From a virus: a DNA stretch of 25,131 bases. Both the position numbers and the translations under genes were made by a program. The DNA lies in the IMG/VR virus record IMGVR_UViG_3300044712_001944, positions 1 through 25,131 of that record. The stretch is one strand, 5' to 3'. Below the pieces are notes generated by a model. It made no database searches. It was not told the DNA's origin and worked only from the letters and a program-made list of their open reading frames with translations. Within the stretch, counting starts at the first letter, position 1, and every line of letters begins with the position of its first letter. Positions 7,302 through 25,131 of this stretch are shown piece after piece.

Positions 7302-10300
7302 CCTTTGATAACCCAACCAGTACCATTATGTCTGATGTAAGCTCCTCCTGTTCCATTTGTAAGATAATTATTTGTTAGAGTTACATTTGCTCCGAATGTT
7401 TGAATACTTGAAAATGTATTAGTAGCATCTGTCTTTGCTAATGTTCCATTGTAAGCAATAGTCCAAGTTGGTTTTGTTAAATATGTGGAGTAGTTAGCAT
7501 TCCAATTTGCACTTCCTGATGTGCTAGAGTTTAAAGCATAATCATATCCCAATGTTAAATTCTTACCTTGGGAGAATATACTTGTTGTAGCATTAATATC
7601 TCCGAGGACATTTAATTTATTTTGAGGACTTCCTGTTGCGATACCAACATTTCCACCTGTCTTTAACATTATATTTGGATTACCACTATTCCAATCTCCT
7701 ATTGCCAAATCTCTATAATTAGTTCCATCATAAGCTAATAATCTTCCAGCATGACCTGTTTCATAATAATACATTGAAGTATAATTTCCTATTGTTGTTG
7801 GAAGTGTTGTTGTACCATTAGCAATAAATGCTCCATTTGTTCTTGCTTGTCCATTAACATCTAAAGCCAAGTTTGCAGAATTAGAACCTATTGAAATATA
7901 ATTAACATTAGTTAAGTTTTTAGCATTTAAATCTACATTTGAACCTGCTCCTGTGAATGGAACATAAGAAGTATTAGTTGCATTCCAATCTGCTGAATGT
8001 AATAAAGTTCCATTATAAGCATCTATCCACCAATTCTTTATGTAACCAGTAGCATTCCAATCTTTTATATAACCACTAACATTCCAATCTTTAATTAATC
8101 CAGATGAATTATAATTAACTAAATCAGAAGTTTTAGCAATTGTTCCATTCATTACATTAACCCAAGAAGCCATTGTACCATTAACAACATTTGCCCAAGT
8201 AACATGAGTTAAGAACGTTGAATAATTTGTACCTCTAAATGTATCATTTAAATATATTGGGGCAGTAGTTGAGTTGTAATAAGCATAGGGATTTGAAACT
8301 AAATAATAAGAAGTGTTAGTTATGCTACTCCAAGTTGAATTATATTTTGTGAAATTATCTGTCCACTTAGGGTCTAGTTCTGTTTGTGGATTAGTTGAAT
8401 TATAATAAGAATAAGGATTTGATAAGCCATAATATAAACTATCAGCATAGGTTTTATTGAATGTAGCAAATGTACTATTCCAATATGTATTTCCATTAAG
8501 CAACTGATTATTGTTTGTTGGTACTGAACTTGCTAAAGCTAAAGTTCCATTAACTGCATTTGCCCAAGTTATATGTGTAAGGAAAGTAGAGTAGTTTGTA
8601 CCTCTAAAAGTATCATTTAAATAAATTGGTGCTGTTGAACTATTGTAATATGAGTAAGGATTTGATAATCCATAGTATAAAGTATCAGCATAAGTTTTAT
8701 TGAATGTAGCAAAAGTTGAATTCCAATAAGTATTAGGATTACTTGCTAAATAATAAGAAGTATTAGTTGCATTCCATTGTGAAGCTAATAAAACTGTTCC
8801 ATTAACAATATTAACCCACCAGTTTTTAATATATCCAGTAGCATTATCGTCCTTTATTAATCCACTTGCATTCCAGTTAGCAATATATCCTGAGGCATTC
8901 CAATCTTTAATGTATCCAGTTGCATTCCAATTAGCAATATAGCCTGTTGAATTCCAATCTTTTATAAGTCCTGTTGTATTATAAGAATGATAAGTGTTAT
9001 TTGTTGTGTTAGACCAGGAAGCATTATACTTTGTGAAGTTATCTGTCCATTGTGGGTCTGTTTCTGTATATGAAGTTAATACTCCAGTTAGTTGAGAACC
9101 ATTACCAAAGAAATAACTTCCTGTTATGTTATAGCCAGTATTATTTAGGTTTTCATTTTTATGGAATGAGAAAGGGTCAATTTCTGTTCCTGCTGGTGTT
9201 GATAGCCCTTCACTGATTGTAACCCAATCATAATAATGAACATGACCAGTATTCCCATTTGCAGATTGATAAAATCTTAATTGAACAACTCCACCACTTA
9301 TATGTTCCGATTCATCAAACACACCTATTTGTTTTATATTATATTCTGATACTTCTCCAAGTGTTGCATAGTTTTCCCAATCTCCATCAGCAAAATCATA
9401 TAATTGAACATTAACTAGATGGTTTTCTCCTGCTGTTGATTTATACCTAAAAACAATTTGATTAAAAGATGTAATACCTGTGAAATTAACTCTAAAGTCT
9501 AAACCTGTTGCCCCACTTGCTTCAGTTACATTATAAGAAATTCCATCATAAGTTAAAAGGTTTCCTATAACTCCAGCACCTGTTCCTCTTACTGCTGAAA
9601 TAGCTGAAGCATTAAAATACATTGTTTCTAATTTAGTTTGATTAAATACAATTCTAGCATTTGCAGCATCCCAATAAATATATCCAGCTGAATCATTATT
9701 CCAATTATTTTGATTAAGATGTAATGATAATGGTTCTGCTACTGGAGAGTATAATGTATCTGCGTATGTTTTATTCCAATTAAATAAAGTTAGATATGTT
9801 GAATAGTTTTGTCTAAATGTATCGTTTATGTATATTGGGGCCGTGGTTATATTATAATAAGCATTTGGATTAGAAGCTAAGTAATAATTACTTAATGAAC
9901 TGTTTAAAGCTAAAGTACCATTAACTGCTTCTGTCCAAGTTATTTTATTTAAAAAATCTGAATAATTAGCATTCCATAAACTTTCACTTGTTAAGTAAGT
10001 TCCATTAGTTGCATAAAGATAACCATCTGTTAAATTATAATTATTTGAGAAAACATCTCCAGAAAAATTTGCTATCTCTGTGTCCATATTTACTTTAAAT
10101 AATTGTTTACTATCAGAATTTCTCATGAACAAAAATCCCCCTAATTTATCTGTAATATCAAATACCAAATAATTTTTTCCCAAATCTAAAGTATCTGTAT
10201 TATCAGAATACAGAGAAAGAAATTCATCTGTTTCATTTCTAAACATTATACCTGTAGAAGTTGCATTTAAAGTTAAGTAATTACTTGTCAAAGCATTTGC

Positions 10301-16164: not shown

Positions 16165-17466
16165 TCATTCTACTTTTCCTCTTTGTTGAAACATCTTTAT
16201 TTTCTCTTGGGCTTTCTTATAATTAACTTTAACTAATCTTCCTCTTGCTACTTTCTTCTTTTCAATTAAAAGGTTTAATCTTTTCAAAGCTCTCCCTACC
16301 CACTTTTCATTTATCCAATCTTCTCCACTTCCCATAAACTCTTTAAACTTATTAGTTAGTTCACTAATAAAAACAAAGCCATCTCTTTCTACTTCTTGAC
16401 TTAAGAAATCATAAAGGGAAACATCTGAGTTATCTGATATTGCCTCTTCTTTCTTTATTTCTATAATTGATTTGAAGTCTTCTATTATCTGCTCAAACAA
16501 TTCATCTGAAATATTATAAGCAACTAGAAATAAAGGGAAGCTTAACTCTAAGAATCTACCAGTTATCCCACTACTAAATACTTTATTAAAAAATACTTCT
16601 TTTGTATCTTTAGTGGTGTTAGTGCCGTTAGTGTTATATATGATGTTAGTGTTGTTAATGACGTTTAATAGCACATAGTCGTTCCATTCTGTATAGATGT
16701 TTTTAATAGAAACGTCACGGCACAAACGGCACTGAACCAGTTTTTCCTTTATAATTTTAAATTTTTGGAATGACGTTTCTTTTTCCCACATTTCAATTAA
16801 GCTAGTTTTTTTAGGATTATCTGACCTTTCTAGGATTATTTGGATACATCTATCTCCCAAAACATCTTCCATTCCAGAGATGTTAGCAATTTGGATTGGT
16901 CTATAAACATCAAACTCTTCTACTACCATCTTCTCTCCAGTAAAGTCTTTCTTCTTAGCCATCCTTTTAACTTTAGTTCCTTTCTTGTAAGCGGAGTTAA
17001 GTAACTCCCTTAAACTTTCAATTCCTTTTCTAGTTATTCCTTCAAACTCATCTATACCTAATCCTCCTTTGGTTCTAAACAATACTGCTTCAGTTAAACT
17101 ATTAAGTAAGCTACCATCAATAAAGCTATTAATCATTTTCATTAGTCTTGTCTTTCCGCTTCCCTTCATAGCATTAAAGAATAGGTAGGGGTAAGATTCA
17201 AAGTCTTCATGTAAGATTGCTCCAATAATCCAAACAGCTACAATCCTTTTACTTTCATCTGGCATCTCCATATACTTATCTAAGAACTGATTAATTATAA
17301 TATATAGCTCTTCTGGAGAGTTATCTCTTTCCCATTCAGAACAATAGTTATTTAATCCAACACTAAACTTTTCAAAGTTAGTACTCTTTAAAGAACACTT
17401 CCCTTCTTCATAGTATCTACAATTCTTGCAAATCATTAAAGAAGTTAGATCACCTACTTCTTCCAT
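16165..17466 (-). CDS. Zinc-finger AAA+/D5-like replication helicase
   Basis: A 433-aa protein. Residues 13-42 hold four Cys (CKNC, C23, C42), probably a metal site. A P-loop ATPase domain follows: Walker A in NAMKGSGKTR (K105), Walker B in GLGIDEFEG (D139, E140), a sensor-like IANISG near 193-198, and an arginine-finger candidate in GDRCIQ (R206). This order resembles DUF3631/D5-like helicases found in plasmid and virus replication proteins. The C-terminal ~80 residues look like a winged helix. No primase domain is attached. It is the best candidate for a replication protein and presumably unwinds DNA at the origin. It starts two bases after the Sm-like gene stop. Confidence 0.78.
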   Translation of the reverse strand: MEEVGDLTSLMICKNCRYYEEGKCSLKSTNFEKFSVGLNNYCSEWERDNSPEELYIIINQFLDKYMEMPDESKRIVAVWIIGAILHEDFESYPYLFFNAMKGSGKTRLMKMINSFIDGSLLNSLTEAVLFRTKGGLGIDEFEGITRKGIESLRELLNSAYKKGTKVKRMAKKKDFTGEKMVVEEFDVYRPIQIANISGMEDVLGDRCIQIILERSDNPKKTSLIEMWEKETSFQKFKIIKEKLVQCRLCRDVSIKNIYTEWNDYVLLNVINNTNIIYNTNGTNTTKDTKEVFFNKVFSSGITGRFLELSFPLFLVAYNISDELFEQIIEDFKSIIEIKKEEAISDNSDVSLYDFLSQEVERDGFVFISELTNKFKEFMGSGEDWINEKWVGRALKRLNLLIEKKKVARGRLVKVNYKKAQEKIKMFQQRGKVE

Positions 17467-17467
17467 T

Positions 17468-17674
17468 TTAAAGTTCTTCCTCCATTACCTCAATCTCCCC
17501 AGATGCGAATGTAACAAGTTGGTTAGTTCCTTTCTTTATTAATCCGATCCATACTAAACCATTACCAACATCTTCTACTGATTCAACTAAACCAGCGTAT
17601 GTTCTTTTATTCTTTAGAATTACAAATACTTTCTTTTTAACATACCTAGAAAAATACATACATTCATTTGTCAT
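17468..17674 (-). CDS. Sm-like (LSm) small protein
   Basis: A 68-aa protein. The ATG at 17674 is preferred to a TTG two codons upstream. The pattern KKVFVILKNKRTYAGLVESV followed by a turn, two strands and VTFASGEIEVMEEE resembles the five-stranded Sm fold: Sm1-like LK-N-R-x-Y-x-G and an Sm2-like segment with GEI. Archaeal Sm proteins are usually 70-80 aa rings that bind U-rich RNA. It leads the leftward block and directly precedes the helicase. An RNA-binding partner for the structured RNA downstream is an attractive but untested idea. Another small SH3-like barrel is the alternative. Confidence 0.55.
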   Translation of the reverse strand: MTNECMYFSRYVKKKVFVILKNKRTYAGLVESVEDVGNGLVWIGLIKKGTNQLVTFASGEIEVMEEEL

Positions 17675-17741
17675 ACCCAACTTAGAAATAATTAATATTT
17701 AAACATTAGTAACTACAAACAAGTTAAAACAAAGTTTAACA
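17675..17741. promoter_or_regulatory. Divergent promoter region
   Basis: This 67-bp gap separates the leftward and rightward gene blocks. The AT-rich ATATTTAAAC (17695-17704) can act as a TATA box on the plus strand, about 38-47 bases before the ATG at 17742. On the minus strand the overlapping GTTTAAATATTAATT lies some 20-30 bases before the ATG at 17674, which would give a nearly leaderless transcript. A regulator bound here, such as the adjacent AbrB-like protein, could control both directions. Confidence 0.5.
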
Positions 17742-17987
17742 ATGTATAGAAAGGTTTATATACCACCATATCTTATATACGGTATGAGAAAAGAAATACA
17801 ACAATACGGAAACTCAAATGTTATTGTTTTAAACAAGTCCGATCTAAAAGTCTATGGGCTAAAGGTTGGTAATATAATAGAACTAACAATAACTGGAGTG
17901 ATTGATACTCAAGACTGTTTTCCCTCTTCACAGCCAAGTAATAAATCAAAGAGGAATATTCAAACTAAGAAGGAGAAGAAACAATGA
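17742..17987 (+). CDS. AbrB/SpoVT-like DNA-binding protein
   Basis: An 81-aa protein. Residues ~18-50 (YGNSNVIVLNKSDLKVYGLK followed by VGNIIELTI) fit the swapped-hairpin AbrB pattern G-N-S-x-x-I-x-x-P/N-K-x-x-L-x-x-x-G-L-K-x-G-D/N-x-I-E-L. The tail (NKSKRNIQTKKEKKQ) is basic and disordered. AbrB-type proteins are dimeric transcription factors, often autoregulatory or antitoxins. It is the first gene of the rightward block, immediately beside the divergent promoter, which suits an early switch regulator. It overlaps the next gene by four bases (ATGA). Confidence 0.68.
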   Translation: MYRKVYIPPYLIYGMRKEIQQYGNSNVIVLNKSDLKVYGLKVGNIIELTITGVIDTQDCFPSSQPSNKSKRNIQTKKEKKQ

Positions 17988-18145
17988 GCAAATTACAAAT
18001 AATAACAAAAGAGGGTAAAATAATACAAGTAGATGTAAATGAAAAAACTAAGAAGGAGATTGATAATTTTGCTAAGAATATTGGTTTATCAACATCCTCT
18101 TTTTGTAGGATGGCGGTTATAAATGAAATGGAGAAGAAACAATGA
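17984..18145 (+). CDS. Ribbon-helix-helix regulator (53 aa)
   Basis: A 53-aa gene read by hand. A beta-strand-like start (MSKLQIITKEGKIIQVDV) precedes two helices, NEKTKKEIDNFAKNIGL and STSSFCRMAVINEMEKKQ, the CopG/MetJ/Arc arrangement in which the strand enters the DNA groove as a dimer. Its start and stop both overlap neighbouring genes as ATGA, so it is translated with the AbrB-like and winged-helix proteins. It is likely a transcription repressor of this replicon. Confidence 0.7.
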   Translation: MSKLQIITKEGKIIQVDVNEKTKKEIDNFAKNIGLSTSSFCRMAVINEMEKKQ

Positions 18146-18390
18146 GATGTCCACACTGCGGAGAAGAAGTAGAGTTTATTGGTAATTATGAAGAAAAAAT
18201 ACTTCAACAAATAAAAGAAGAAGATTTTCAAACAATAGCAAGTATACAAAGAAAATTGGGTATCCCAAGAAGTTCAATGATTTATTATATTAACTCTCTT
18301 GCTAAAGATAATAAAATTAAACTTACTAAATTAATACATCTTACTGGACAACCAGTTATTATAAGTTTTATTGATGAGAAGAAACAATGA
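18142..18390 (+). CDS. Winged-helix regulator with N-terminal zinc knuckle
   Basis: An 82-aa protein starting with a single CPHC knuckle (MRCPHCGEEVEF) and continuing as a winged helix: an EEKILQQIKEEDFQTIASIQ helix pair, a recognition helix near IPRSSMIYYINSLAKDN, and a wing (KIKLTKLIHLTGQPVIISF). Only one Cys pair is present, so metal binding would need a dimer or is lost. It is the third small regulator in a row, coupled by ATGA on both sides. It probably controls early or late gene expression. Confidence 0.68.
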   Translation: MRCPHCGEEVEFIGNYEEKILQQIKEEDFQTIASIQRKLGIPRSSMIYYINSLAKDNKIKLTKLIHLTGQPVIISFIDEKKQ

Positions 18391-18608
18391 ATAAAATAAT
18401 CCTATTAACATTAATCTTTTGCTTTGTAGTATTAGCAGGGGCAACATACATGATGTTCTTCACTTCTAATAATCAGATACATGAAGTAAGAGCAGTTAAT
18501 AATTCACAAGAAAGAGCATTATGTCCTTTCTACTGCATAGACAACGGCTTTGCTGGTGGCTATTATACTAACTGGATAAATAAATGTGTATGTAGGAGGA
18601 AAGAATGA
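18387..18608 (+). CDS. Small exported Cys-containing protein
   Basis: A 73-aa protein with a signal/anchor helix (residues ~4-25) and a short outer domain with four Cys (CPFYC, CVC) plus Gly/Tyr residues, likely disulfide-linked or metal-bound. One sequon (NNS) lies before it. It is coupled by ATGA to the regulator upstream and to a 45-aa gene downstream. Function unknown. A membrane-tethered peptide acting on the host envelope is one possibility. Confidence 0.62.
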   Translation: MNKIILLTLIFCFVVLAGATYMMFFTSNNQIHEVRAVNNSQERALCPFYCIDNGFAGGYYTNWINKCVCRRKE

Positions 18609-18742
18609 CAGGAGTATTCACAATCCCAGATGAAGAACTTCAATCTGAAAGCTGGAGATTAATGTTAAGACAAGAATCAGAGGAAGAAAAGTTTGAAAGA
18701 AAACAGAAGGAAATAATTGATGAGGTGTTTAGAGAATGGTAA
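18605..18742 (+). CDS. 45-aa acidic/charged helical protein
   Basis: A short gene read by hand: MTGVFTIPDEEL followed by a highly charged helix (LRQESEEEKFERKQKEIIDEVF) ending REW. Its start overlaps the preceding stop (ATGA) and its end overlaps the next start by seven bases, so it fits the tight rightward gene string. No family is recognised. It may be a protein-protein adaptor. Confidence 0.58.
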   Translation: MTGVFTIPDEELQSESWRLMLRQESEEEKFERKQKEIIDEVFREW

Positions 18743-18945
18743 AAGAAGTTACAATAAAAATAACAAATAAGTTTCTAATAGAAGTTCATTTTTGGTGTTG
18801 GTTTTTAATTTCTTACTTTGTGATAATGGGTTATTTAGTTCCAAATAAAATAACTTTAATTACTGGTATTGTAATTACCTTTATTGTTTTTCTTATTTCT
18901 TTATTATTTTCAATTAAATCAATAAAGGAGGTTAAACAACAATGA
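18736..18945 (+). CDS. Two-helix membrane protein
   Basis: A 69-aa protein with hydrophobic segments near residues 19-36 and 42-60 and short charged ends (N-terminal MVKEVTIKITNK, C-terminal IKSIKEVKQQ). It overlaps its upstream neighbour by seven bases and the next gene by four (ATGA), and an AAGGAGG SD for that next gene lies inside its 3' end. A holin-like or membrane-anchor role is possible, but nothing decides it. Confidence 0.62.
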   Translation: MVKEVTIKITNKFLIEVHFWCWFLISYFVIMGYLVPNKITLITGIVITFIVFLISLLFSIKSIKEVKQQ

Positions 18946-19289
18946 CAGAACAACAAAAAACTTGGTTAGAACAAGAAGCATCAGGACTAACACAAAAAGG
19001 CGACTATGAAGACTTACCCGCTTTGAAACTAACTGAAAATGTAATTGCTGAATTTGATATAGATTTTAGCAATGAATTTACTAAGTGGAGTGGAAAAGAT
19101 AGTAAAGGTAATCCAGTTACCAAAAGTATTATTCCAGTAACTGTTAATGGAACTAAGATGGTATGGTGGCTCAATGTAAAGAATCCAACATATAGAGAAG
19201 TTATCACAGCTGGAATATCTGGGCAAAAGCATTTTAAGGTGTTACAAACTGGAAAGCAAGATAATACAAAATATGTATTAGTAAAGTAA
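18942..19289 (+). CDS. Possible OB-fold single-stranded DNA-binding protein
   Basis: A 115-aa soluble protein with an acidic N-terminus (residues 1-25) and a beta-rich body whose strand order (ENVIAEFDIDF, VTKSIIPVTVNG, KMVWWLNVK, HFKVLQTGKQDNTKYVLVK) and exposed Trp/Phe/Tyr resemble small OB-fold SSBs encoded by archaeal plasmids and viruses. No zinc site is present. A strong SD (AAGGAGG) precedes it. Its place between regulators and replication-type genes agrees with an SSB role, but the family call is from pattern only. A generic beta-barrel protein is the alternative. Confidence 0.6.
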   Translation: MTEQQKTWLEQEASGLTQKGDYEDLPALKLTENVIAEFDIDFSNEFTKWSGKDSKGNPVTKSIIPVTVNGTKMVWWLNVKNPTYREVITAGISGQKHFKVLQTGKQDNTKYVLVK

Positions 19290-19300
19290 AAACAATTTCC

Positions 19301-19448
19301 CATTAGCTCCATTTATTTTTAGGAGCTTTCATACTCCAGAGATTAGCTAAAGGAGTTCTGGAGAGGCGACCAATAAGCCTTTGAACACTCCTTTAGCATT
19401 AAACTCACTAGGGTACTCATCCCTCGCCTTTCGCAAGAAGGGCGAATC
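19301..19448 (+). ncRNA. Structured leader/intergenic RNA, copy 1 of a repeated hairpin element
   Basis: The 165-base gap between genes holds several helices. AGCTCC (19305-19310) pairs with 19322-19327 around a T-rich loop. GCTAAAGGAGT (19346-19356) pairs perfectly with 19387-19397 (11 bp), with the motif GGAGAGGCGACC (19360-19371) in the loop. CTCCAGA (19334-19340) can also pair with 19357-19363, crossing the 11-bp stem as an H-type pseudoknot. AGGG/CCCT (near 19410-19424) and TCGCC/GGCGA (near 19424-19445) form further hairpins just before the next start codon. The 12-base loop motif recurs at 24623-24634. It may be a cis-regulatory RNA, processed 3' end or packaging signal. The T-rich stretch at 19311-19320 could also terminate transcription. 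Confidence 0.6.
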
Positions 19449-19454
19449 ATAATC

Positions 19455-19742
19455 ATGCCAAAGAACATAAAAGAAATAAGATTGTGGAATGATAATCCAC
19501 AAAAAGATAGAATATCAAATGTAGTCAGAATAGAATTTAACTTCCCCTGTACTTGGACTATCTTAGACATTGAAGATTTAAAGAAGATAATTAGATTATG
19601 GATAGAAGGAGAAGAACTTAAGTATCCAAGAGATAAAGACATCGGTCTCCATGTTGGAGAGTTAAGAGGTAGAGGTATGTTGTTTGAAGAAATAAAGAAG
19701 TTGTTTGAATTAAACTTGCCGAAAAAGGAGAAAGGAGAATGA
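19455..19742 (+). CDS. Uncharacterised 95-aa soluble protein
   Basis: A charged alpha/beta protein with no membrane segment. Residues ~20-35 look like a strand pair (NVVRIEFNFPCTWTILD), followed by a helix (EDLKKIIRLWIEG) and a C-terminal helical region ending KKEKGE. It has no clear Shine-Dalgarno site. Instead a stable hairpin (19424-19445) ends about ten bases before the ATG, so its translation may depend on the upstream RNA structure. It is coupled by four bases to the next gene. Family unknown. Confidence 0.65.
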   Translation: MPKNIKEIRLWNDNPQKDRISNVVRIEFNFPCTWTILDIEDLKKIIRLWIEGEELKYPRDKDIGLHVGELRGRGMLFEEIKKLFELNLPKKEKGE

Positions 19743-20221
19743 ATATTTATAATTTAAAAGATAAGGATAAACTTACTTTAAATGGAAAGCAATTAAAAGA
19801 ATGGAAGGAATTAGTTATTAAAGAATATAAGAATAGTGAATATCCTTCAACATTACATAGGAGAGCAAGGAGAGAAGGTTTTCTTGAAGCAGTAGAAGGA
19901 TTAAAACAATGGATAATTAATGAAGGAACATTAGACCCTGAACCTTGTTGTCATGGAGTTAGGATATGTAATATCATAAATAAGTTGGATGAATGGAAGA
20001 AACAAGGAGATAAAAGATTTGTTTTAGATGAGAAGCATTTAGCTTTTATTAAGCAATTATTAGAAGAGGGATATTCTAAAAGTGAAGTAGCAAAGGAATT
20101 AAATGTTTCAATTGCTACTATTTGTTATTGGACTAATCCAAGATTTAGGAAAAGACAAATGGAGAAGAATGCTAAACATAAGTTTGGAAAGAAATTAAAT
20201 ATTATTGAAAAGAAGAAATGA
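19739..20221 (+). CDS. DNA-binding protein with C-terminal helix-turn-helix
   Basis: A 160-aa protein preceded by an AAAGGAG SD. Residues ~1-80 are helical and charged, with a CCHGVRIC cluster near 89-96 that could bind metal. Residues ~110-140 (LLEEGYSKSEVAKELNVS followed by IATICYWT) are a typical homeodomain/resolvase-type helix-turn-helix, and the tail is very basic. It is likely a site-specific DNA binder, possibly the protein that recognises the replicon's repeat cluster or promoters. Both ends overlap neighbours as ATGA. Confidence 0.68.
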   Translation: MNIYNLKDKDKLTLNGKQLKEWKELVIKEYKNSEYPSTLHRRARREGFLEAVEGLKQWIINEGTLDPEPCCHGVRICNIINKLDEWKKQGDKRFVLDEKHLAFIKQLLEEGYSKSEVAKELNVSIATICYWTNPRFRKRQMEKNAKHKFGKKLNIIEKKK

Positions 20222-20421
20222 AACACTTAGACGGAGAGCCATGCTTTATAGAAATGAATAAACCAAGTTGTGCTTTAATGGTAGAATACTTAGGGCATAC
20301 AATAGATTGGTATAAGGAGCATGGAATAAGAGGAGAGATTTATAGTGTTAATGAATATATTAAAATGTTTAAGAGTATGTATGGAGATATTACAATAAAT
20401 GAGGAGTTGGAAAGAAGATGA
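20218..20421 (+). CDS. Uncharacterised 67-aa protein
   Basis: A small soluble protein with two Cys, a mid-region LMVEYLGHTIDWYKEHGIRGEIY, and a helical C-terminus ending EELERR. It is joined to the HTH gene upstream and the acidic-protein gene downstream by four-base overlaps, so it is likely co-translated with them. Nothing in the sequence identifies its role. Confidence 0.6.
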   Translation: MKHLDGEPCFIEMNKPSCALMVEYLGHTIDWYKEHGIRGEIYSVNEYIKMFKSMYGDITINEELERR

Positions 20422-21044
20422 GTGATGAGGAATTTGATTCTGCAATAGATGAGGAAGAGCCAAGAGATGAGAATGATATTGAAGAGGGAGATTATTCTAA
20501 GAAGTCCGACTTTGATAAAGCATCTATTGTTCAGGGTGCAGTTCAGAAAGTTCAAGAGACAAGAAGTCAAGAGATGAAAGAAGGTTACTTTAATATTCTT
20601 GAATTACCCAATGGTTCTATAAAGAAAGTATACTTCCCAGATACAAGACAACAATATATTGGAAGTGTTAATTATCTTAAAGCAGTTCTTAGTCCAGAGA
20701 TAAGAACAAATGATAATATTAAAAGATTTTTAGTTAAGTTTGATAAACAGAAAGAAGAACTACTAAATAAATATTCGGTAATCCGAGTAACTACTAATGG
20801 AAATGATATTATTGAATTAAAGGAGAAGTATCTTCCAAGAGTTGATGAAGAATTCCCTATTAAGATATTGGTTAATACTGGAAATGGAAAGAATAGAACA
20901 AACATTGTATTCAAAAGAGGATTACATAACTTCAATGTTAGGATGTATTGGGATGAAATGGTTGAATTGTATGATACTTTGTTTTGTGAATTAAATAACT
21001 TAATCTCCGAGAAGAATTACTTCAAGAGACAAACATCTTATTAA
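20418..21044 (+). CDS. Acidic-N-terminal protein preceding the ATPase
   Basis: A 208-aa protein. Residues 1-30 are dominated by Asp and Glu and are probably disordered. The rest alternates strands and helices (GYFNILELPNGSIKKVYFP, IKRFLVKFDKQKEELLNKYSV, a FKRGLHNFNVRMYWDEMVELYD end). Its stop is directly followed by the ATPase start, indicating that the two work together, for instance as a partner or substrate adaptor. The acidic tail may mimic DNA or contact a basic surface. Family unknown. Confidence 0.66.
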   Translation: MSDEEFDSAIDEEEPRDENDIEEGDYSKKSDFDKASIVQGAVQKVQETRSQEMKEGYFNILELPNGSIKKVYFPDTRQQYIGSVNYLKAVLSPEIRTNDNIKRFLVKFDKQKEELLNKYSVIRVTTNGNDIIELKEKYLPRVDEEFPIKILVNTGNGKNRTNIVFKRGLHNFNVRMYWDEMVELYDTLFCELNNLISEKNYFKRQTSY

Positions 21045-21968
21045 ATGGAAAAGGCAAAAACATTTGATAATGTACCTGAAGGTGATGTTATTTTGAATTA
21101 TGTTAATCATAGATTTAGAGTTGGGCTTGGAACTAACATATTTATCATTGGATTGTCTGGGACAGGCAAGAGTTCAAGCTCAATAAGGCAAGGAGAATTA
21201 ATTATTGAGTCAAGACCTAAGGAAGAACTTAAAATGTTTGTTGTTGATTCTCTTCTTGAGCTTCTTGCTGCAATTAAACAATCAAAGGAAGGAGACATTA
21301 TAATAATTGAAGAAGTATCTGTATTATTCCCTTCTCGTCGTGCAATGGGTAGTGAAAATTTAGCAATTGCAAAGATATTTGATACAATAAGAAAGAAAAG
21401 ATTATGTTTAATATCAAATGCCCCTCTTTGGAACTCAATTGATAACCATATGAAGTCTATGGCTCATGTTTTGATGCAAACAATTAAGATTTATAAGACA
21501 GAAGGGGTTGTTGTATCAAAATTCTGGAGAATTCAGACTGATCCTTCTTCAGGAAAGATTTATAGGCATACAATGACAAGAAAAGGTAAGGAAGTAGACC
21601 GAATGATACTTAGAAGACCAAATAAAGATAGGTGGGAGCAATATGAGAAGGATAAAGAGGACTTTATGGATCAATTATACCTTAAACTAAAGAGAGAACA
21701 GGAAAAGAAGGAGATGAAAGCTTCTAAAGAGGTTGTAACTATTAGTAATGGGGGTTTAACACCTAGAGAAGCTGAAGTTAACTATCTATCAACTGTGGCA
21801 GGACTTACACCAACCCAAATAGCTAAAAAGTTAGGAATAACTTATGATAGAGTTGCACAATTAAGAAAAGCAGTTAGAAATAAGACAAAAGTCGAGGGAA
21901 ATACCGAAAATAACACCCAATATATTACTAATATTAGTCAATTTAAAGCGAAATCCGTCGCAGTCTAG
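21045..21968 (+). CDS. P-loop ATPase (HerA/FtsK or Zot-like) with C-terminal HTH
   Basis: A 307-aa protein. Walker A is in IIGLSGTGKSSSS (K42, S43) and Walker B in GDIIIIEEVSVLF (E89/E90). A sensor-like LISNAP lies near 122-127, and an Arg-rich loop near residue 98. This resembles the compact RecA-fold ATPases of archaeal viruses and plasmids (HerA/FtsK/Zot group), used for genome packaging or DNA translocation. Residues ~230-280 (GGLTPREAEV...TPTQIAKKLGITYDRVAQLRKA) add a DNA-binding HTH, so the motor could select its own DNA. A charged helix of about 30 residues separates the two. It ends just before the repeat cluster at 21984, a plausible binding site. Confidence 0.75.
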   Translation: MEKAKTFDNVPEGDVILNYVNHRFRVGLGTNIFIIGLSGTGKSSSSIRQGELIIESRPKEELKMFVVDSLLELLAAIKQSKEGDIIIIEEVSVLFPSRRAMGSENLAIAKIFDTIRKKRLCLISNAPLWNSIDNHMKSMAHVLMQTIKIYKTEGVVVSKFWRIQTDPSSGKIYRHTMTRKGKEVDRMILRRPNKDRWEQYEKDKEDFMDQLYLKLKREQEKKEMKASKEVVTISNGGLTPREAEVNYLSTVAGLTPTQIAKKLGITYDRVAQLRKAVRNKTKVEGNTENNTQYITNISQFKAKSVAV

Positions 21969-21983
21969 GTATTTTGTATAGAG

Positions 21984-22080
21984 TGTAGTGCCTAAGTTCC
22001 TTTAAATTAACTTAGAGTTGTAGTGGGTAATATTATTACCTACCAAGATGTAGTGCCTAAAACAATACTGTAGTGCCTAA
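21984..22080. repeat. Iteron-like repeats with palindromes (origin or recombination site candidate)
   Basis: Three exact copies of TGTAGTGCCTAA lie at 21984-21995, 22049-22060 and 22069-22080, plus a degenerate copy TGTAGTGGGTAA at 22019-22030. All are in the same direction, with start-to-start steps of 35, 30 and 20 bp. Between them are two palindromes: CTAAGTT/AACTTAG (21992-21998 with 22009-22015) around an AT-rich loop, and GGTAATATTATTACC (about 22026-22040). It lies in the only non-coding gap of this part, between the HTH-ATPase and the recombinase. Directly repeated sites plus AT-rich palindromes are typical of replication origins. A recombinase site or operator is the alternative. Confidence 0.62.
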
Positions 22081-22110
22081 AAATAAATAAAATGACAAAA
22101 AACAAACAAA

Positions 22111-22188
22111 ATGATTGAAGAATTAGCTATAATGTTTGCAATAGTCATGGCTTTTCTAATAGGAAGGGAGTTGTTTAAGAAGAAATGA
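22111..22188 (+). CDS. 25-aa membrane micropeptide
   Basis: A short gene read by hand: MIEELAIMFAIVMAFLIGRE followed by LFKKK. It is one hydrophobic helix with an acidic N-end and a basic C-end. Its TGA overlaps the ATG of the recombinase as ATGA, suggesting that it acts as a translated leader for that gene or is a real micropeptide. The SD upstream is weak, so confidence is modest. Confidence 0.42.
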   Translation: MIEELAIMFAIVMAFLIGRELFKKK

Positions 22189-22733
22189 GCGAGGAATTAG
22201 TTGGAGCATACATTAGAGTAAGCGATCAGAAGCTTACAGATGAAGGACTTAGAAGACAAGATATTAACAGGCAAAGAGAGAAGATAAAAAAGTATTGTGT
22301 GCTTATAGGATTACCAGAACCTATATTCTTTTGTGATGATGCTATCAGTGCTTTCAAAGATGACTATAGTTCTAGACCACAATTCATTAGACTACTTCAT
22401 GAAGTTAAAGCAAATAGAATTAATCACATCATAGTTGAAGATATGACTAGGTGGAGTAGAAGAATTGAAGATGGACTTAAGACATTAAAGGAAGCAACAG
22501 AAAAAGCTAAAGTAACCTCTTTAGCTGAAGGAGAACTTGGAGTTACTATTCCAGAAGAATGGTTTAAGACTGCAATAGGTTTCTTAATGGCAGAGTGGAG
22601 CTCAAGAATTACTGCTTACAAAGTTAGGTCTGGTATGGAAAAGAGATTAAAAGATGAATCTAAGAAATGCAAAGTGTGTGGGAAAGTTCATCTTGGAAGA
22701 GTTCCGCAAAGCTGTAAGGAAAGGGGAGGTTAA
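22185..22733 (+). CDS. Serine recombinase (resolvase/invertase family)
   Basis: A 182-aa protein. The catalytic motif YIRVSD (S13) and the GLRRQDINRQ helix are at the N-terminus. RPQFIRLL (about 64-71) and the conserved DMTRWSRR (R89, R92) follow, all hallmarks of serine recombinase catalytic domains. Instead of the usual C-terminal HTH it ends with a zinc knuckle (CKVCG...C177). A long helix (about 130-157) could be helix E. It probably cuts and rejoins DNA at a nearby site for multimer resolution, inversion or integration. The repeat cluster just upstream is a candidate site. The missing HTH means DNA recognition relies on the zinc end or a partner. Confidence 0.85.
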   Translation: MSEELVGAYIRVSDQKLTDEGLRRQDINRQREKIKKYCVLIGLPEPIFFCDDAISAFKDDYSSRPQFIRLLHEVKANRINHIIVEDMTRWSRRIEDGLKTLKEATEKAKVTSLAEGELGVTIPEEWFKTAIGFLMAEWSSRITAYKVRSGMEKRLKDESKKCKVCGKVHLGRVPQSCKERGG

Positions 22734-22734
22734 A

Positions 22735-22836
22735 ATGATAAAGGAAAAAACACCATATTTTAAGGGGCTTCGAATGGTTAGCCTTATTTCATTAATTCAG
22801 CGAAACAAATATAAACTTAGAGTGGGTATGTGTTAG
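22735..22836 (+). CDS. 33-aa basic peptide
   Basis: A short gene starting one base after the recombinase stop, with a very good SD (GGGGAGGTTAAAATG). The peptide is basic (MIKEKTPYFKGLRMVSLI onward, ending KLRVGMC) and has no membrane helix or metal motif. The strong ribosome-binding site is the main support. Function unknown. Confidence 0.5.
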   Translation: MIKEKTPYFKGLRMVSLISLIQRNKYKLRVGMC

Positions 22837-22839
22837 TGT

Positions 22840-22977
22840 ATGGAAAATAAAGAAGTGAGTGACGAGATAAGATGCAAGAAATGCGGATCAACATTTACTT
22901 ATATTAGATTCTTAAAAAGATCTAGGGTCTGTAGACAATGCGGTTATATAGAAAATTTAAATGAGGTTAAAGAATAA
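22840..22977 (+). CDS. 45-aa zinc ribbon
   Basis: Read by hand: two knuckles, CKKCGS (about residues 12-16) and CRQCGY (about 31-35), separated by a basic YIRFLKRSRV strand, forming a complete CxxC...CxxC zinc ribbon. It sits three bases after the 33-aa peptide gene, and its TAA overlaps the next ATG (TAATG). A small nucleic-acid or protein adaptor is the usual role of such ribbons. Confidence 0.68.
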   Translation: MENKEVSDEIRCKKCGSTFTYIRFLKRSRVCRQCGYIENLNEVKE

Positions 22978-23690
22978 TGGGAGAGATACTTGGATTAGAT
23001 ACTGGAACTTTGGCCATGCCAAAAATAAATGTAACTGGATTCTTTTCTAACACTTGGGTTTATATTTTAATTATAGCAATTATTGGAGTAATTGCTATTG
23101 GCATTATATCTTTATTACTTTTCAAAAAGACTTACAAGAAGAAAGTAGTTATCTTTGAGAACATTGCTGGAAGAGGTTATCAGCCTGTATTAAAGACTTC
23201 TGCAAGAGTTGTTAAGGTGGCTAATGGTGGAATGGAAGTTTTGAAAACATTAGCTGGAAGAATATATTTAGATGCTCATGCAAAGAAGATGGGAATGAAT
23301 ACTTACTGGTTTGCTAAAGGATCAGATGGTTATTACTATAATATTCTTCTTGGAGACTTAGATAACAAGATGGGAATGTTAGATATTGAACCAGTAGATA
23401 GAGATGTTAGAATGTGGCATGCAGGAGTTGAAAGATTAAAAGAAGATACTTACAATAAGAAAGGTTGGTTTGATGAACATTCAAATCAGATAATATCTTT
23501 TGTTTTCCTTATAGTTTTGGTTTTTGGTATGTGGTTTATTGTTGGAAAGATTGGAGATGCCACTACTGCTCTTGCTTCTACAGCAGAAACAAACAAACAA
23601 GTTTTAGTTTCACTTCAAGGAGTTTTAGAGAATGATATATTTAAATCTAAACTTTCTGGGGTTGGTGGTTTAATTCCAGCTACAAAATGA
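22977..23690 (+). CDS. Two-pass membrane protein with cytoplasmic globular domain
   Basis: A 237-aa protein. The first helix spans about residues 28-50, followed by KKTYKKK. A soluble domain of about 115 residues (VVIFENIAGRGYQPVLKTSAR onward, with an aromatic YWFAKGSDGYYYNILL segment) comes next, then a second helix near 170-192 and an outer or luminal tail. The positive residues after helix 1 place the large domain in the cytoplasm. Together with the following small membrane proteins it forms a second membrane module, perhaps an assembly or secretion platform. I do not recognise the family. Confidence 0.75.
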   Translation: MGEILGLDTGTLAMPKINVTGFFSNTWVYILIIAIIGVIAIGIISLLLFKKTYKKKVVIFENIAGRGYQPVLKTSARVVKVANGGMEVLKTLAGRIYLDAHAKKMGMNTYWFAKGSDGYYYNILLGDLDNKMGMLDIEPVDRDVRMWHAGVERLKEDTYNKKGWFDEHSNQIISFVFLIVLVFGMWFIVGKIGDATTALASTAETNKQVLVSLQGVLENDIFKSKLSGVGGLIPATK

Positions 23691-23977
23691 TAAGTGTTGC
23701 TTTAATTATTTTTTTAATCTTCTATGGATATATGGGAGAAAAAACCTATCTTTTCTTAAAGAATAAAGAGCCAAATCAAATTAAAAGGATTCTCCTTTCT
23801 TTATTTTGGTTTGTAGATATTGGAAAGCAATGGTATGTTTCTGTTAAAGAGATAACTAAAACAAATGAATCTATGTTTAACTTTCTTGGTTGGGATAAAG
23901 AAAAACCAAAGGAAGAAGTTAAAGTAGAAACAAAAGAAGAGATTAAAGAAGAAGTTAAAGAGGAAGAAAAGAAATGA
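23687..23977 (+). CDS. Membrane protein with Lys/Glu-repeat tail
   Basis: A 96-aa protein with an N-terminal hydrophobic helix (about residues 2-15), an amphipathic middle (FLKNKEPNQIKRILLSLFWFV), and an acidic/basic tail made of repeated EEVK, ETKEE and EVKEEEKK units (residues ~70-96). Such tails form extended single helices or bind charged partners. It is coupled by ATGA to both neighbours in the membrane module. Function unknown. Confidence 0.68.
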   Translation: MISVALIIFLIFYGYMGEKTYLFLKNKEPNQIKRILLSLFWFVDIGKQWYVSVKEITKTNESMFNFLGWDKEKPKEEVKVETKEEIKEEVKEEEKK

Positions 23978-24255
23978 TAATCTACATTGAGTTCTTAATC
24001 TTAGGGTTAGTTTTCTTTATTTTTTTAGGTTGGTCTATTTGGTACAACTTATCTACAACTAAATTAAGGAGGAAGTATGATGAACAAAGAAGAAGAGAAT
24101 CAAAAGGAACAGGAGAACTTGGCACTTCAGAGGGAAGTGTTAGTTCTAAGAGACCTTTTTTCTTTAAAGGACGAGAGCTATTACCGCCAACAGATTCTAT
24201 TTCAACTGGAGAGAATAGCAACAGCACTAGAAAGTTCTTTAAAAAAAGAGGTTAA
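23974..24255 (+). CDS. Possible membrane protein overlapping another frame
   Basis: A 93-aa reading starting with a good hydrophobic helix (residues 2-24), coupled by ATGA to the gene before. After about residue 35 the sequence becomes Ser/Gly/Pro-rich and looks non-native, exactly where a second frame (24077-24259) encodes a well-formed coiled coil with a strong SD. Either the helix-coding first third is real and the tail is a by-product of overlap, or the two frames are joined by frameshifting. The N-terminal helix part is the more credible portion. Confidence 0.45.
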   Translation: MIIYIEFLILGLVFFIFLGWSIWYNLSTTKLRRKYDEQRRRESKGTGELGTSEGSVSSKRPFFFKGRELLPPTDSISTGENSNSTRKFFKKRG

Positions 24256-24259
24256 ATAA
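24077..24259 (+). CDS. 60-aa coiled-coil protein
   Basis: A charged helical protein (NKEEENQKEQENLALQREV and onward, ending ALESSLKKEVK) with heptad-like Leu spacing. An AAGGAGG SD lies seven bases before its ATG, and its TAA is followed directly by the ATG of the next gene, two strong signs it is translated. It overlaps 23974-24255 in a different frame over most of its length. A soluble adaptor for the surrounding membrane proteins is plausible. Confidence 0.62.
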   Translation: MMNKEEENQKEQENLALQREVLVLRDLFSLKDESYYRQQILFQLERIATALESSLKKEVK

Positions 24260-24526
24260 ATGAATAAGTCATTTATTAACATATTAATTATTGGAGGTTT
24301 TATTTTAATCCTCCTTTCTCCATTATTACTACTTCCTGATATATTTGAAGCAAGACAATTCTGTATTTCAAACAACTTAACATATAGCCTAAATTTGCGA
24401 TTAGAGAGCTTTTGTGATGATTTAAAGATAAATAAGTATTATTCTAACATAGAACAAAGAACTTATTGGGAATATGAGCAAAACTTCCCTTATAAAATAA
24501 AGTTAAATTTTTCTGAATTTTCCTAA
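24260..24526 (+). CDS. Small exported protein with membrane anchor
   Basis: An 88-aa protein. An N-terminal hydrophobic segment (about residues 8-27) is followed by an outer domain with two Cys (FCIS, FCDD), which may form a disulfide, and two sequons. It ends the rightward block, starting directly after the preceding stop. Downstream lies the structured intergenic element where the two strands converge. Family unknown. Confidence 0.63.
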   Translation: MNKSFINILIIGGFILILLSPLLLLPDIFEARQFCISNNLTYSLNLRLESFCDDLKINKYYSNIEQRTYWEYEQNFPYKIKLNFSEFS

Positions 24527-24534
24527 CTCTCACT

Positions 24535-24580
24535 TTTTATAAAAATAAATGATGGCTTAACAAGGGAGCCATCAGCCCTC
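24535..24580. terminator. Convergent transcription end with hairpin and T-runs
   Basis: Just after the last plus-strand gene is CACTTTTTAT, and the hairpin GATGGCT (24551-24557) with AGCCATC (24567-24573) follows. On the minus strand the same region offers ATTTATTTTTAT after the 103-aa gene. Archaeal termination relies on T-runs, so this convergent gap probably ends both transcripts. Confidence 0.5.
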
Positions 24581-24598: not shown

Positions 24599-24648
24599 TT
24601 GAATGCCCCTTTGAGTTATAAAGGAGAGGCGACCCTTCAATGCTCAAA
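24599..24648 (+). ncRNA. Repeated hairpin element, copy 2
   Basis: The exact motif GGAGAGGCGACC (24623-24634) sits between TTTGAG (24610-24615) and CTCAAA (24643-24648), which can pair. Copy 1 (19346-19397) frames the same motif with an unrelated 11-bp stem, so the loop is conserved while the stem differs. TTGAA (24599-24603) with TTCAA (24636-24640) would cross that stem as a pseudoknot, and CCTTT/AAAGG (24608-24612 with 24620-24624) is a competing hairpin. Like copy 1 it follows a plus-strand stop codon and another hairpin. Role unknown. Confidence 0.55.
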
Positions 24649-24969: not shown

Positions 24970-25040
24970 TTTTTAACCTCCTTACATTTATCTCTCGAAA
25001 AAAGAGATAAAAAAAGTAAGTATATATTCTTTAAATACTT
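24970..25040 (-). promoter_or_regulatory. Promoter, leader hairpin and strong SD of the coat-protein candidate
   Basis: Read on the minus strand: TATA-like GTATTTAAAG and ATATATAC (about 25019-25038, also bases 15-34), a T7 run, then a hairpin TTATCTCT/AGAGATAA (24988-24995 with 25003-25010) around a T-rich loop, then AAGGAGGTT (24975-24983) five bases before the ATG. The hairpin with T-runs could stabilise the leader or stop read-through from the upstream genes. Confidence 0.6.
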
Positions 25041-25131
25041 AACGTTACAATGTTACAAATTATATTTCACTTTGCTTTCTATCAAAGAATAACCAAGAAG
25101 CCGAAGCTATTGTAACAACTAATGTTATAAC
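25005..25131. repeat. Terminal direct repeat, right copy (circular overlap)
   Basis: This is the exact second copy of bases 1-127. From 25060 on it repeats the 3' part of the 109-aa membrane protein gene annotated at 56-385, so no separate gene should be called here. It lets the minus-strand reading continue across the junction into the 24658-24969 gene. Confidence 0.93.

Follow-up and report, generated by a model that had tools for sequence, protein, structure and literature searches.

The non-coding gap at positions 19290-19454 of this viral genome folds, by prediction, into two crossing helices beyond what chance would produce. We read it, tentatively and at slightly less than even chances, as a cis-acting intercistronic H-type RNA pseudoknot in a polycistronic viral mRNA, most likely serving as an operator bound by a protein. 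The element is real and non-random, it is probably an RNA control element, and it has a probable pseudoknot in common with one related virus. A GC-rich 12-mer, GGAGAGGCGACC, overlaps one arm of the knot and occurs once more, in a less structured environment, at the end of the plus-strand gene block.

The viral genome

The window (the whole stretch of 25,131 bases that was analysed) begins and ends with an identical 127-bp terminal repeat, 1-127 and 25005-25131. Because of this repeat, we regard the record as a circular replicon that is complete at about 25,004 bp, which it probably is. Repeated ends are also found in two related records, G001 and G005, although IMG/VR-type records may be assigned to another class. 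The G+C content is 28-35%, and most genes form two divergent blocks, one on the minus strand from about 17,680 leftwards and one on the plus strand at 17,742-24,526. No tRNA or tmRNA was found in the window.

At the DNA level, the virus has no meaningful similarity to 50,697 annotated phage records, where only one relative of its ATPase is detectable, nor to annotated plasmids. This ATPase (21045-21968) is similar, at 27% identity and E 1e-8, to the one encoded by LSV-48N, a lemon-shaped Haloferax virus, and protein resemblances to LSV-48N and to the relatives described below suggest that the host is probably archaeal. KKGQ-type signal sequences would be the sole ground for a DPANN host. A short serine-recombinase gene at 22185-22733 carries the resolvase N-terminal domain only (Pfam E 6e-17); L038, L044 and L045, too, show recombinase-like ORFs. 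Within a 216-nt gap, three copies of a 14-nt repeat, TGTAGTGCCTAA(A/G)(A/T), are arranged at 21984-22082 around the AT-rich palindrome GGTAATATTATTACC, and repeats and palindrome together are a possible replication origin.

Structural proteins of the virus find relatives in IMG/VR, namely G001 (26.3 kb), G002 (26.1 kb), G005 (25.3 kb), G006 (18.2 kb) and G007 (14.5 kb). The ATPase and primase used as baits retrieved no relatives from viral contigs. Close relatives of the capsid-type proteins also lie on a contig, L030 (JAUVLT010000066.1), which is filed in a MAG (G004) named Mycoplasmatota. We discarded this MAG as a host clue: three loci read by eye as bacterial, and L030, probably a binning error, gives no host.

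A 12-mer repeated in two non-coding gaps

The motif pointed out in the sequence-only reading, GGAGAGGCGACC, is present exactly twice, at 19360-19371 (copy 1) and 24623-24634 (copy 2), each time on the plus strand and in a non-coding gap. There is no other site in the genome at up to one mismatch. It is the sole repeated 12-mer with at least 8 G+C in the genome, 0.01 being expected from order-2 Markov sequences. The same reading spoke of a repeated hairpin, and here it went too far, since only the 12-mer repeats: the longest helix enclosing copy 2 has 7 bp with G-U pairs allowed, a length reached in 316 of 1000 shuffles. The flanks of the two copies align within chance (95 of 500 shuffles). On this result we rejected two ideas: that the homology of the copies extends over an 8-nt indel, TAAAGGAG[TTCTGGAG]AGGCGACC, and that the copies are circularly permuted. 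A coding peptide shared over both copies was dismissed as well, no plausible ORF being seen by eye.

Searches allowing up to two mismatches did not find the 12-mer in G001 or G002, and G005 gave only control-level matches, with three mismatches. Duplicated GC-rich non-coding 12-mers of an analogous kind were sought in the relatives and none was convincing. When the 12-mer was extended by two or three additional positions shared by the copies, the wider set of viral contigs yielded 17 matches, located in loci of 41-70% G+C and, by eye, without a recognisable surrounding element. Within the searched set, only this virus has the duplicated 12-mer.

This specificity, together with the chance-level alignment of the flanks, is what one would expect if the 12-mer were a local duplication or a chance similarity with no function of its own, lying on top of ordinary gap structure. 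Nevertheless, we regard this as very improbable. Such a repeat is hardly expected in a genome of this composition, the gap around copy 1 has fold z-scores of -5.8 and -5.9 (two runs), and the pseudoknot described next has a counterpart in G001.

Predicted crossing helices at copy 1

Copy 1 lies in a 165-nt gap (19290-19454), which a sliding scan ranks first for structure within the plus-strand operon; all elements given below are on the plus strand. The predicted stem S2 is a perfect helix of 11 bp, pairing GCTAAAGGAGT (19346-19356) with ACTCCTTTAGC (19387-19397), and an equally long helix around the motif arose in 9 of 1000 flank shuffles. It is crossed by the 7-bp helix S1, in which CTCCAGA (19334-19340, within a segment starting ATACTC) pairs with TCTGGAG (19357-19363), the latter strand abutting S2 without a spacer. 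No pair of helices matching these two was obtained in 400 shuffles of the gap. Among 66 H-type pseudoknots in 233 strand-kb of five related records, this virus included, that of copy 1 scores best. Two further hairpins complete the arrangement: AGCTCC/GGAGCT with a U-rich loop at 19305-19327, upstream of the knot, and another at 19424-19445, with its 3' end 9 nt upstream of the ATG at 19455. For the 5' arm of the latter, TCGCCTTTC, the motif (GAGAGGCGA) is an alternative pairing partner, over 9 bp including one G-U.

Stem, crossing helix and extra hairpins up to the start codon had all been drawn correctly in the sequence-only reading. Its picture of a stem that presents the 12-mer as a loop needs correction, however: the motif is enclosed by S2 and yet not free, its first four bases, GGAG, being part of the 3' strand of S1. 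Loop 3, 23 nt long, holds AGGCGACC and, at 19377-19386, GCCTTTGAAC, whose counterpart in G001 is GCCTTTAAAC. Inside this region, AGAGGC (19362-19367) has an alternative partner in GCCTTT (19377-19382).

A compact and strongly folded gap of this size might also yield a small RNA that is released from the mRNA by processing or termination and acts in trans via the exposed motif, and the virus may encode an Sm/LSM-like protein (see below). Sites in the genome complementary to the 12-mer (runs of at least 9) are, however, near expectation, 35 against 27, a result on which pairing of the motif with a distant target was rejected. Rfam (release 15) has no family reaching its gathering score in the window, and permissive matches, for both copies as well as for the corresponding gaps of G001 and G002, remained at E >0.2, far below the cut-offs. 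A trans-acting RNA of this kind appears improbable to us.

The second copy

Copy 2 is situated between convergent gene ends, 24526 on the plus and 24658 on the minus strand. Since no plus-strand gene lies downstream of it, explanations based only on a downstream gene fail for this copy. It resembles copy 1 in the 12-mer and in the hairpin preceding it, which is here formed by TGATGGCT/AGCCATCA at 24550-24574 on the plus strand. Its gap is not significantly folded (z = -1.3). Another crossing pair is possible, between CAAGGG in the loop of the hairpin and CCTTTG at 24608-24613, and was matched in 4 of 400 shuffles.

Both copies follow plus-strand stop codons, with a hairpin in between, and copy 2 marks the end of the operon; G006 also has a hairpin in the convergent gap that corresponds to that of copy 2 (L045:11228-11303). 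These features would suit a transcript-end or attenuation structure at both places. On the other hand, folding falls short of significance in the G005 counterpart of this gap (z -1.2), and neither copy has a bacterial-type terminator, i.e. a GC-rich hairpin with a U run, in a scan that does not cover archaeal U-tract terminators. Such a structure would, moreover, leave the identical GC-rich 12-mer unexplained, and we consider it a shade less probable even than the small RNA.

Related viruses

A 109-aa gene of G001 is followed by a gap (L026:15361-15480) that reads ATACTC-ACTTC...GAAGT-GAGGGG...GCCTTTAAACA...TCCTGC, and its counterpart in the window reads ATACTC-CAGA...TCTG-GAGAGG...GCCTTTGAACA...TTTAGC. 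Aligned in this way, either gap could fold into an H-type pseudoknot, the helices following in the same order: CTCCAGA/TCTGGAG with GCTAAAGGAG/CTCCTTTAGC in the window, CTCACTTC/GAAGTGAG with GCAGGA+GGGG/CCCC+TCCTGC in G001. The G001 helix pair was matched in 1 of 400 shuffles, in a test that included only the 6-bp part of S2. The two parts of S2 are separated by an insertion in G001, and S2 abuts S1 only if GGGG/CCCC is counted. Between the two viruses, both sides have changed in 4 of 10 S2 pairs and 4 of 7 S1 pairs and no pair is broken, as counted in a hand alignment made after seeing both sequences and for this single relative. Local alignment of the two gaps is only marginally better than that of shuffles (12 of 500), and other gap pairs align more weakly.

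ATACTC, GAGRGG and GCCTTTRAACA are common to the window and G001 at this gap and occur nowhere else in the pieces searched. The pattern ATACTCN{15,45}GAGRGG has a single site in each of three records, the window, G001 and G002, always in the gap after a gene of 109-116 aa, and is missing from four other records; G005 and G006 do not contain it, and the reversed pattern, used as control, had no site anywhere. Having been derived from these same sequences, the pattern describes synteny more than it tests it independently. The gap of G002 is strongly folded (z -4.5), as nested hairpins that do not form the same knot. Its sense-strand z is the lowest of 30 same-strand gaps in this and related viruses, most others being near zero; this set left out the window and G001 gaps, where overlapping antisense ORFs misled the gene caller, and these two were scored separately. 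G002 has a second strongly folded gap, L028:7592-7645, located just before a start codon and containing AGTGCGGGG...CCCTGCACT, with z -7.4 for 7505-7645.

The G001 gap is thereby probably one structural homolog of copy 1, and a single homolog is no proof of a family. A search of related replicons, as the sequence-only reading had called for, did not find the 12-mer in the records examined and recovered the fold in one, G001. Proteins encoded upstream of the gaps show no convincing similarity among the relatives by BLASTP; low-confidence models of two of them share an N-terminal helix and a beta-beta-alpha-beta-beta end. The downstream genes of the three viruses (window, G001 and G002) look unrelated by eye.

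RNA or DNA element

With RNA parameters, fold z-scores of the sense and antisense strands were -5.9 and -3.0 in the window, -3.4 and -0.1 in G001, and -4.5 and -4.1 in G002. With DNA parameters, both strands had similar energies in all gaps. Because sense folding exceeds antisense folding at copy 1 and in G001, the strand bias favours RNA over DNA, a DNA hairpin still being compatible with it. The proposal that the element acts at the RNA level to control the downstream gene thus survives in part. For copy 1 it agrees with the sense-strand excess here and in G001 and with the compensated pseudoknot that can be drawn in G001, and control of the downstream gene by this copy is plausible; for copy 2 it cannot be the job.

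A DNA replication element would have to be a nick or primer hairpin, comparable to a rolling-circle origin, with the 12-mer as the part recognised by a protein. In SNJ2, the proposed rolling-circle origin comprises an inverted repeat and a distal hairpin downstream of the Rep gene, at the end of the replication operon (PMC13107129). The layout found here is similar: hairpin, then 12-mer at both copies, placed at gene or operon ends of a small circular archaeal-type virus, copy 2 at the very end of the plus operon. LSV-48N, the distant relative, encodes the Rep family in question. An inverted repeat with stem-loop is present at copy 1; in copy 2, the stem around the 12-mer is at chance level. 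The Rep family, Rep-Arvir/DUF7845 (PF25227), is absent from this virus (G000) and from G001, G002, G005 and G006, while LSV-48N, the positive control, reached 314 bits in the same search; an SNJ2-type origin was rejected on these grounds. No rolling-circle Rep was found among the window proteins scanned against Pfam. The folding is biased to the sense RNA strand, and the TGTAGTGCCTAA repeats at 21984-22082 offer another origin candidate. A role in DNA replication is in our opinion unlikely, though it deserves more weight than any other alternative to the RNA pseudoknot operator.

Neighbouring genes and candidate binding proteins

The gene upstream of copy 1 (ORF 18942-19289, plus strand, 115 aa) belongs to no Pfam or PHROG family. 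Its structure model is of low confidence (pLDDT 48). Foldseek searches with this model placed phage ssDNA-binding proteins on top, led by Pf3 SSB and with many gene V chains close behind, at E-values and scores that are insignificant. The product is possibly OB-fold or ssDNA-binding-like.

The downstream gene (19455-19742, plus strand, 95 aa) is likewise without Pfam or PHROG family. It had been singled out for lacking a Shine-Dalgarno sequence, and the absence is real, but it is not distinctive, the same rule finding none at 12 of 32 window start sites (one of the 32 coordinates does not read ATG). The missing Shine-Dalgarno sequence, being common in these genomes, was dropped as evidence.

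A second candidate binding protein may be encoded on the minus strand at 17468-17680, beside the ATPase/primase-like gene 16165-17466. This small protein of 70 aa matches Pfam LSM at E 0.0015, below the cut-off, and a similar match (0.0008) occurs in L047. Small proteins resembling it are found in L026, L028, L038, L045 and L047, and a profile of six such look-alikes gives best matches to Tudor/FXR chains (E 1e-4). It may be an Sm/LSM-like protein.

Discussion

In the cis-acting operator that we tentatively prefer, a pseudoknot of S1 (7 bp) and S2 (11 bp), joined without a spacer and flanked by two hairpins, would separate the candidate ssDNA-binding-like gene from the gene lacking a Shine-Dalgarno sequence, and would influence how the mRNA is translated, or how stable it is, in the region of the downstream start codon. 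In the most likely version, a viral nucleic-acid-binding protein would read the purine-rich GGAGAGG at the junction of S1 and loop 3. Copy 2 of the 12-mer would then provide another site, with weaker structure, where this operon ends on its 3' side. It would be a much bolder step, and one we find quite unlikely, to see here a new family of intercistronic pseudoknot operators in little-studied circular archaeal viruses, read by a viral protein of the ssDNA-binding or Sm-like type that would recognise the repeated 12-mer at both of its sites in one operon.

If both fold and role hold true, they would reveal RNA-level control in a virus group that has no DNA-level match, and one detectable ATPase relative, among the annotated phage records, and would open a testable comparison of archaeal viruses with phages T4 and M13 and their operators for ssDNA-binding proteins. 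The copy 1 gap is, in addition, a locus that can be traced in more relatives.

Two ssDNA-binding proteins, gp32 of T4 and the gene V protein of M13, repress translation via specific mRNA targets; the target of gp32 includes a pseudoknot, and its RB69 counterpart has another sequence and a similar structure (PMC535899). The T4 operator lies in the 5' leader of the gene for its own regulator, whereas copy 1 follows the candidate ssDNA-binding gene 18942-19289. The T4 operator is the target of an ssDNA-binding protein, while the product of 18942-19289 resembles such proteins weakly and by a low-confidence model. With the gene 32 operators of T4 and RB69, copy 1 shares a predicted pseudoknot in a viral mRNA upstream of a start codon, the vicinity of a possibly ssDNA-binding-like gene, and relatives that diverge in sequence while a similar fold can be drawn.
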